Source: Martelella mediterranea (GTDB taxonomy: Bacteria > Pseudomonadota > Alphaproteobacteria > Rhizobiales > Rhizobiaceae). Taken from it: a stretch of 64,000 bases of DNA. The stretch is taken from NCBI RefSeq assembly GCF_021021415.1, contig NZ_JAINWJ010000043.1:1-64000 (forward strand), written 5' to 3'. Shown here piece by piece: positions 30,681 through 32,881 of the stretch. The position numbers were made by a program, and so were the translations under genes. The notes beneath the pieces were generated by a model. That model was given only the letters and a program-made list of their open reading frames with translations. It was not told the origin of the DNA and made no database searches. Position 1 is the stretch's first letter. Every line of letters begins with the position of its first letter.

Positions 30681-31751
30681 ATGCGCGTAGACCTCTTCGA
30701 TTTCGACCTGCCGGACGAGAATATCGCCTTGCGGCCCGCGAGCCCGCGCGACAGCGCGCGGCTCTTGGTGGTGCGGCCGGGCGAGGGGCTAGGCGATCAT
30801 GTCGTCTCCGAACTGCCGTCCTTCCTGCGGCCGGGCGACGCGCTGGTGTTCAACGATACCAAGGTGATCCCGGCCCAGCTTGAGGGCGTTCGGCTGCGCG
30901 AGGGCGGCGAGGAGGTGCCGGTGTCGGCCACGCTGCATCTCAGGAAGGCCGACAATCTCTGGCATGCCTTCGCCCGACCGGGCAAGCGCATCAAGCCCGG
31001 CGATGTGCTGCGTTTCGTTTCCGCCGATGGCGCGACGACGCTTTCCGCGACGGTCGAGGAAAAGCGGGACGGCGGCGAGGTGGTGCTGACATTCGACGCC
31101 CGCGGCGGCGCGCTCGATGAGGCGATGATGCGCGTCGGGCACGTGCCGCTGCCGCCCTATATCGCCTCCAAACGCGCCGAGGACGGCAAGGATCGCGACG
31201 ATTACCAGACCATCTACGCCCGTGAAAACGGCGCGGTTGCCGCGCCCACGGCCGGCCTGCACTTCACGCCGCGCCTGATGCAGGCGCTGGAACAGGCCGG
31301 CATCGAACGCCATTTCGTCACGCTCCACGTCGGTGCCGGCACCTTCCTGCCGGTCAAGGCCGATGACACCGACGACCATGTGATGCATTTCGAGCGTGGC
31401 ATCGTTTCGGCCGAAACGGCCGCGGCGCTGAACGCGGTCAAGGCGCGGGGTGGGCGGATCGTCTCCGTCGGCACCACCTCGCTCCGGCTTCTGGAAAGTG
31501 CCGCGGCCGAGGACGGCCGGATCGCGCCGTGGGAGGGCGAAACCGGCATCTTCATCACGCCCGGCTACCGCTTCCGCGCGGTCGACATGCTGATGACCAA
31601 TTTCCACCTGCCGAAATCGACGCTGTTCATGCTGGTCTCGGCCTTTTCCGGCCTTGAGACCATGCGCGCGGCCTATGCCCACGCGATCGAAACCGGCTAC
31701 CGATTTTATTCCTACGGCGATTCCAGCCTGCTGTTCAGGAAAGACAGATGA
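30681..31751 (+). CDS. queA: S-adenosylmethionine:tRNA ribosyltransferase-isomerase
   Basis: Transfers the ribosyl moiety of SAM to preQ1-modified tRNA to make epoxyqueuosine. At 356 residues it is standard. Family motifs are [19 protein letters not shown] at the start, [44 protein letters not shown] and [17 protein letters not shown]. Its stop overlaps the tgt start by 4 bp, so the two queuosine enzymes are translationally coupled. Confidence 0.98.
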
Positions 31752-32881
31752 GCGAAGACTTCCAGTTCACCCTGAAGGCCACCGACGGCAATGCCCGTCT
31801 TGGCGCGATCACCATGCCGAGCGGCGAAATCCGCACGCCGGCCTTCATGCCGGTCGGAACCGCCGGCACGGTGAAGGCGATGTATCTCGACCAGGTGCGC
31901 GATCTCGGCGCCGATATCATCCTCGGCAACACCTATCATCTGATGCTGCGCCCGGGCGCGGAGCGCGTGGCAAGGCTGGGCGGTCTGCATTCGCTGATCC
32001 GCTGGCCACATCCGATCCTGACGGATTCCGGCGGGTTTCAGGTGATGTCGCTCGCGGCACTGCGTGAAATCGACGAGAACAAGGGCGTGACCTTCAAGTC
32101 CCATATCGACGGTAGTGTCCACCATATGAGCCCGGAACGTTCGATCGAGATCCAGGGGCTTCTGGGCTCCGATATCCAGATGCAGCTCGATGAATGCGTT
32201 CGGCTTCCCGCCGAACGTGCCGAAATCGAAAAGTCCACCGACATGTCGCTGCGCTGGGCCGAGCGCTGCCGCGTCGCCTTCGGCGACCAGCCGGGCAAGG
32301 CGATGTTCGGCATCGTTCAGGGCGGCGACATTCCGGACCTGCGCATCCGCTCCGCGCGCGGCCTCGCCGATCTCGACCTCAAGGGCTATGCCGTCGGCGG
32401 GCTTGCCGTCGGCGAGCCGCAGGCGGTGATGCTGGCGATGCTGGAGACGACGCTGCCGGAACTGCCGGCGGAAAAGCCGCGCTATCTGATGGGCGTCGGC
32501 ACGCCGGACGATATCCTGAAATCGGTGGCGCGCGGCATCGACATGTTCGATTGCGTAATGCCGACAAGGGCAGGGCGCCACGGTCTCGCCTTCACAAGGC
32601 GCGGCAAGGTCAACCTGCGCAACGCCCGCCACGCAGAGGACCTGCGCCCGCTGGACGAGGAAAGCGATTGCCCCGCGACCCGCGACTACTCACGCGCCTA
32701 TCTGCACCATCTGGTGCGCTCCAACGAGTCGCTTGGCGGCATGTTGCTGACTTGGAACAATCTGCATTATTACCAGCAGCTCATGCAGGGCATTCGCAAG
32801 GCCATTGCAGAGGGACGCTACGACGATTTCGTCGCGGAAACCCAGGAAGGCTGGGCGAGGGGCGATGTCGCCGCTATCTGA
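31748..32881 (+). CDS. tgt: tRNA-guanine(34) transglycosylase with a degenerate zinc site
   Basis: Exchanges G34 for preQ1 in tRNAs with GUN anticodons. The 377-residue length is normal. Catalytic residues are kept: Asp93 ([12 protein letters not shown]) and Asp268 ([17 protein letters not shown]). The zinc-binding region is odd. Where Zymomonas/E. coli enzymes have C-x-C-x2-C and a later His, this protein has Ser306, Cys308, Thr311 and Asn337 ([24 protein letters not shown]). Three of four ligands are therefore missing; His340 lies one turn after the lost His. It overlaps queA by 4 bp and the convergent P-loop gene by 8 bp. Confidence 0.97.

Follow-up and report, generated by a model that had tools for sequence, protein, structure and literature searches.

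A probably zinc-free tRNA-guanine transglycosylase in Martelella mediterranea and the loss of zinc ligands across its order

A tRNA-guanine transglycosylase (Tgt) gene of Martelella mediterranea is located in a 64,000-nucleotide stretch of contig NZ_JAINWJ010000043.1 (assembly GCF_021021415.1), here called the window. Its product lacks three of the four residues that hold zinc in the Zymomonas mobilis enzyme (Cys318, Cys320, Cys323, and His349). The question is whether this protein works without the metal, holds it by other side chains, or is losing its function. We consider it very likely that it is an active and probably zinc-free Tgt, in which the C-terminal dimer subdomain folds without metal and the loss of the site was inherited. 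The gene and its neighbor are as follows.

30681 to 31751, plus strand: queA, S-adenosylmethionine:tRNA ribosyltransferase-isomerase (PF02547, 408.3 bits).
31748 to 32881, plus strand: tgt, tRNA-guanosine(34) transglycosylase of 377 amino acids, by its sequence probably a zinc-free form.

The tgt reading frame is open, with neither an inner stop codon nor a frameshift in its translation. The product belongs to the Tgt family, as its match to the equivalog model TIGR00430 (474.7 bits) is above the cut-off of 306.75 bits, and it matches PF01702 with 511.1 bits. Its best solved relatives in a phmmer search against PDB chains are TGT chains of the Zymomonas group, and it contains the preQ1-type base pocket GGLAVGE (G217 to E223), the meaning of the GGLAVG motif being described in PMC10723273. 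The predicted coupling to queA was borne out: the two genes overlap by the four bases ATGA (31748 to 31751), the tgt ATG starting at 31748 and the queA TGA occupying 31749 to 31751. By protein and family searches, this is the single Tgt found in its own genome (106 contigs totaling 5.4 Mb, with completeness rated at 100%). The same searches gave no second, zinc-type tgt, and thus no copy was seen that could do the work in its place. Two peculiarities of the protein are located elsewhere, in residues 107 to 112 (32066 to 32083): Glu107 stands where at least 90% of one Tgt alignment has Lys, and the stretch has one extra residue that is absent from 15 other sequences of a Tgt alignment.

In the phmmer alignment with PDB chain 1ozm, the four zinc positions were read as in the original prediction, with Ser306, Cys308, Thr311, and Asn337 standing opposite Zymomonas Cys318, Cys320, Cys323, and His349, respectively. 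Three of the four Zymomonas-type ligands are therefore replaced, and the Cys-Cys-Cys-His set (CCCH; patterns are given in this order below) is absent. The alignment passes through the site without gaps; the window stretch around residues 306 to 311 lies opposite ECHCAVCQKWS, and LTWNNLHYY lies opposite MTEHNIAFY. The codons, with the residues found at each position in 126 sequences of the same order, are as follows.

32663 to 32665, plus strand: codon of Ser306, in the place of Zymomonas Cys318; Ser in 114 of 126.
32669 to 32671, plus strand: codon of Cys308, the sole zinc ligand left, equivalent to Zymomonas Cys320; Cys in 108 of 126.
32678 to 32680, plus strand: codon of Thr311, in the place of Zymomonas Cys323; Ala in 86, Ser in 19, and Thr in 12 of 126.
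32756 to 32758, plus strand: codon of Asn337, in the place of Zymomonas His349; Asn in 50, Ala in 32, Ile in 19, and Val in 13 of 126.

A sequencing, assembly, or alignment artefact could mimic such replacements, but we regard it as having a negligible chance here, given the intact frame, the ungapped alignment, and the recurrence of similar replacements in independent genomes of the order, taken from two collections. A search of the order gave a match in 143 of 150 genomes, and 102 same-order loci were examined, including the window and one fragment. CCCH was found in none of these 102 loci, compared with 53 of 77 loci from other orders of the class. All 102 lack at least two of the four ligands, which shows that the pattern is not an error of one assembly.

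This set was enlarged with loci from a search of the phylum and with 80 named genome records; removal of the fragment (L129) left 296 rows, and removal of identical rows left 292. In the nonredundant set, CCCH is kept in none of the 126 same-order rows, in 82 of the 128 rows from other alphaproteobacteria, and in 37 of the 38 from outgroups. The order or outgroup of the named records was assigned from their titles, which for a few of the 128 do not give the class. Genomes were drawn evenly, and loci were then taken mostly one per genus and, for the class, from the better-scoring matches; the 82 of 128 is not a census, because divergent Tgts of the class (E values of about 1e-45 to 1e-84) lie outside the sample. 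Among the 126 same-order sequences, three ligands are lost in 107, all four in 15, and two in 4. Aligning Tgt across Hyphomicrobiales, as the original prediction had proposed, therefore showed loss of the zinc site throughout the order, and its expectation of a lineage-wide change rather than decay held in this respect. The change proved to be wider than Hyphomicrobiales, however, since Caulobacterales and other alphaproteobacteria show a partial loss (SCSH) and Pelagibacteraceae a loss of another pattern.

The named records illustrate this distribution. Zinc-less enzymes are found in Rhizobium metallidurans and Brucella rhizosphaerae (both SCTN), in two Mesorhizobium records (SCAN), and in Xanthobacter (SCLA). 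The loss is partial in Caulobacter segnis and Phenylobacterium (SCSH) and in Brevundimonas (IGSH), and the full set is present in Paracoccus, Gemmobacter, Rhodobacter, Loktanella, Sphingomonas, and Roseomonas. The Pelagibacteraceae patterns are CNLH, CNLN, CLLH, and VKLN, and Acetobacteraceae bacterium B3987 has DSAH beside the zinc-type Acidocella. In another class of the phylum, one locus (L202, genome G514) has the spacing CxCxC instead of CxCxxC (DEACGCTCTSG) and keeps the His, possibly representing a shifted zinc site.

If the canonical ligands are gone, zinc or another metal might still be held near the old place by Cys308 together with His278, His320, His340, or acidic side chains. Cys308 is indeed kept in most of the order, and His278 (codon 32579 to 32581; GRHG, ten residues past the nucleophile Asp268) is invariant in all 126 same-order Tgts and found in none of the 82 zinc-type alphaproteobacterial rows, where Thr or Asn predominates; beside the ligands, this is the strongest difference between the zinc-less order and those rows. 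However, 18 same-order sequences have W, N, V, S, E, A, T, or H at position 308, and three of these have a Cys at position 311 instead (SNCI). Some of the other zinc-less rows have Thr, Asn, or Phe in place of His278, and three clostridial enzymes with full CCCH have His there. We therefore read His278 as a mark of the lineage and rejected it as a replacement ligand. His320 and His321 are about equally conserved in the zinc-type enzymes (77 of 82 and 82 of 82, respectively), and His321 corresponds to a dimer hot spot of Zymomonas. His340, which the original prediction had offered as a partial substitute, is present in the window protein but did not survive the comparison: the position is His in only 22 and Ala in 63 of the 126 same-order sequences, and His in only 36 of the 82 zinc-type enzymes. 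Since no Cys or His close by in the sequence is conserved instead, except His278, which other zinc-less rows lack, and 15 of the 126 lack all four ligands, a changed ligand set is improbable.

The catalytic pair is encoded as follows, both positions having been assigned by alignment and found conserved in the survey loci.

32024 to 32026, plus strand: codon of catalytic Asp93 (Zymomonas Asp102).
32549 to 32551, plus strand: codon of the nucleophile Asp268 (Zymomonas Asp280).

Both aspartates had been predicted to be intact, and the alignment with Zymomonas confirms this. They are kept in 178 of the 179 surveyed loci, the other locus being a fragment. Zymomonas Asp156 lies opposite Asp148 of the window protein, and Gln191 and Cys150 also match their counterparts. 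Selection on tgt is purifying: dN/dS of the window gene against nine relatives is 0.11 to 0.21 (Nei-Gojobori). In residues 290 to 345 the ratio is lower than in the whole gene in all eight computable pairs, with dS near saturation in this stretch and one of the nine pairs not computable there; it is 0.07 against 0.17 for the whole gene in the Rhizobium metallidurans pair and 0.09 against 0.15 in the L002 pair.

Tyr318, His321, Glu327, Asn338, and Tyr342 are invariant in all 126 same-order sequences. Tyr330 and His333 of Zymomonas, which correspond to Tyr318 and His321, are reported to be part of an aromatic hot spot in the TGT dimer interface (PMC5395182), and Zymomonas Trp326 and Phe92 are represented by Tyr314 and Leu83 in the window protein. 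The retention of Tyr318 and His321 suggests that dimerization through the C-terminal subdomain appears to be kept.

AlphaFold2, given an input of 60 sequences (the window and named loci), predicted the full TGT fold with the C-terminal subdomain for the window protein, with a mean pLDDT of 92.6 and block means of 94 to 97 over residues 301 to 340. The model matches TGT chain 7apl with a Z score of 56.0 and an rmsd of 1.4 over 370 residues (57% identity over 370 aligned residues). The zinc-type control from Pseudooceanicola (L230) has a mean pLDDT of 92.5, with 89 to 96 in the region of residues 301 to 340, and fits the solved TGT better (Z score of 58.4; rmsd of 1.0 over 370). As AlphaFold2 is blind to metal and gives the family fold regardless, the model indicates that nothing in the sequence disfavors the fold. 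Together with the conserved catalytic residues, the low dN/dS, and the published complementation of an E. coli tgt mutant by a Tgt of the same order (PMC10723273), these results support the proposal that the protein is functional and probably zinc-free or differently stabilized.

The same residues bear on whether Tgt is decaying or has switched function in a bacterium that no longer makes queuosine. Such a course has a precedent in Bartonella, where loss of other pathway genes was reportedly followed by breakage of tgt in several B. quintana strains (PMC10723273), and the window genome lacks two de novo genes. QueC matches reached only 32.7 and 25.1 bits, the cut-off being 150.3 (the same search was positive in 12 of 14 control genomes), and QueF gave no match in the window genome (positive in 9 of 14 controls). 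With queC and queF absent, preQ1 would not be made at home. The salvage set is complete, however: tgt, queA, queG (442.7 bits), and a QPTR-family transporter gene (PF02592) are all present, and the genome is thus probably that of a preQ1 salvager. Decay is also at odds with the intact catalytic and pocket residues, the full-length ORF overlapping queA, the low dN/dS that includes the C-terminal part, and the reported presence of queCDE, queF, tgt, and queA in Sinorhizobium meliloti, a member of the order (PMC3568095). We consider decay or a switch of function very unlikely. Within the genus, QueF is patchy, being above the cut-off in 5 of 13 genomes with the window genome counted. A small genome of the window's family (G446, 1.5 Mb) has an SCAN-type tgt (L190) and a QPTR-family transporter gene, and queA was not found in it; this gene set fits the report on Bartonella (PMC10723273), and the genome may itself be that of a Bartonella.

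Sequences with intermediate patterns suggest that the ligands were lost in an order. The three sequences that have lost one ligand all lack Cys311 (CCSH, CCLH, and CCTH), the CCTH row being an outgroup sequence in which the alignment is possibly shifted, with a Cys one place earlier. Of 29 rows with two losses, 26 lack Cys306 and Cys311 and keep the His; the remaining three come from Pelagibacteraceae and have lost Cys308 and Cys311. Only Cys308 is left in 115 of 124 rows with three losses. Two loci of one genus differ at the first position, L041 (genome G271) having CCSH and L037 (genome G374) having SCSH, possibly a live transition; each of these genomes has two Tgt matches, and G374 is rated 10% contaminated.

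On a tree of the 292 rows, built without the columns around the zinc site, a single large node of 158 tips, with an SH-aLRT of only 52, marks the loss of Cys306 and Cys311. Within it, His337 is lost at a node of 145 tips with support of 97, and Cys308 is lost at 13 places of at most 7 tips each. Parsimony gave 12, 13, 14, and 12 changes for ligands 306, 308, 311, and 337, respectively, on this tree. For the whole site, it gave 8 changes on a 93-row subset tree (same-order and zinc-type rows sampled; L249, L256, L272, L275, L277, L050, L048, and L254 left out) and 9 on a QueA-plus-Tgt tree using 70 of 113 rows; all counts except that for position 308 include apparent regains, which may come from weak deep nodes. 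The zinc-type rows L136, L235, and L166, and on the QueA-plus-Tgt tree also L057 and L268, fall inside the largely zinc-less clade. Close to the window, L002, L180, and L218 (82 to 84% identical to the window protein) have SCSH, so that His337 seems to have been regained or to have lingered there, which fits a position that is no longer tied to metal. The suggested order of loss is built on the three single-loss sequences and on weak deep nodes.

Separate losses are called for Pelagibacteraceae and Acetobacteraceae, from the named records, with the caveat that the 292-row tree places two same-order rows from small genomes (L127 and L128) with Pelagibacteraceae (support of 80.5), perhaps because of long branches. 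A second clade with Ser-Cys-Ala-Asn (L044, L051, L232, and L247) stands apart on the Tgt tree and on the QueA-plus-Tgt tree lies inside a mostly zinc-type clade supported at 97. Joining these four with the zinc-less rows was not rejected on Tgt (p-AU of 0.197) or, with a differently drawn group, on QueA plus Tgt (p-AU of 0.379); as these values leave one origin acceptable, we do not claim convergence on Ser-Cys-Ala-Asn. A broader reading, to which we would give somewhat less than even chances, is that zinc is dispensable to the bacterial Tgt family as a whole and that the alphaproteobacterial site was dismantled more than once in a repeatable order (Cys311, Cys306, His337, and Cys308 last), at times ending in Ser-Cys-Ala-Asn.

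The loss might have been an adaptation to zinc scarcity (zinc sparing), as opposed to a neutral change in which a dispensable prop was replaced. In favor of zinc sparing, ribosomal protein S4 is reported to exist in zinc and non-zinc forms (PMC3087516). The parallel with Tgt is that some members of the family lack the zinc site of a translation protein. The two differ in that the S4 forms reportedly spread by gene transfer, whereas the Tgt change looks inherited through the order, with intermediates. Zinc sparing is disfavored by the single tgt copy found in the window genome and by the absence of the zinc form from all 126 same-order sequences, by which the two forms do not alternate there. 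We regard it as rather unlikely.

Compared with the TGT of Z. mobilis and the E. coli type, the window protein shares the whole fold, the catalytic Asp pair, the GGLAVG pocket, the dimer-interface Tyr and His, and the adjoining queA, and it differs in the three missing ligands. The eukaryotic QTRT1/QTRT2 heterodimer has the same fold and a C-terminal subdomain linked to dimerization, but both of its subunits, including the noncatalytic one, are described as keeping the zinc ligands (PMC4425180, PMC6165067). The closest described counterpart is the Tgt of Bartonella henselae, of the same order, which has the GGLAVG pocket and in which the zinc ligands are expected to be absent by analogy with the order-wide pattern; the Bartonella genome differs from that of the window in having tgt and the transporter without the other pathway genes (PMC10723273). 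The B. henselae tgt is reported to complement an E. coli queDF tgt mutant with preQ1 as low as 10 nM, although preQ1 was present merely in trace amounts in B. henselae tRNA; zinc is not mentioned in either version of that paper's main text (PMC10723273). The Tgt of S. meliloti is likewise expected to be zinc-less from the order-wide pattern. Disruption of its gene reportedly harmed nitrogen fixation and, at low serum, abolished actin changes in HeLa cells; disruption of queC or queF acted like that of tgt, and a queA mutant showed at most a slight symbiotic defect (PMC3568095). One published statement speaks against a zinc-free enzyme: TGT is said to depend on zinc for its activity (PMC9508795, citing Chong 1995). 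Although the Tgt family is known and such sequences are already in databases, we found no report of zinc-site loss in bacterial Tgt, or of an order-wide zinc-free bacterial Tgt, in the literature searched (titles and abstract openings, with subscription journals mostly outside).

For the active, probably zinc-free Tgt that we favor, the following course is proposed. The window enzyme would exchange guanine 34 of tRNAs with GUN anticodons for preQ1, and QueA and QueG would then finish queuosine. Its C-terminal subdomain, which in Zymomonas holds one zinc and is part of the homodimer interface, would fold metal-free, the zinc clamp between the loop of residues 303 to 314 and the long helix of residues 328 to 354 being replaced by direct packing of small polar or hydrophobic side chains (Ser306, Cys308, Thr311, and Asn337). 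In the line leading to Hyphomicrobiales, the site would have been taken apart stepwise, apparently with Cys311 going first, then Cys306, and then His337; Cys308 would have lasted longest. Purifying selection would meanwhile have maintained the catalytic pocket and the dimer contacts.

As the ligands are lost order-wide in an enzyme that still looks functional, zinc in TGT was probably no more than a structural prop that could be replaced. Should a whole order carry out the TGT reaction metal-free, zinc would be such a prop and not part of the mechanism. Bacterial TGT is reported as a drug-design target, with the homodimer interface among the sites aimed at (PMC5395182), and inhibitors that depend on the zinc subdomain may not be transferable to zinc-less Tgts. 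The proposed link of queuosine to zinc supply would then break down in these bacteria at the level of Tgt. With the living intermediates, the loss of a structural metal site becomes directly testable on single enzymes, and if the site was indeed dismantled in a repeatable order, they would form a natural series of stable stages in the loss of a metal site by an enzyme whose reaction stays the same.
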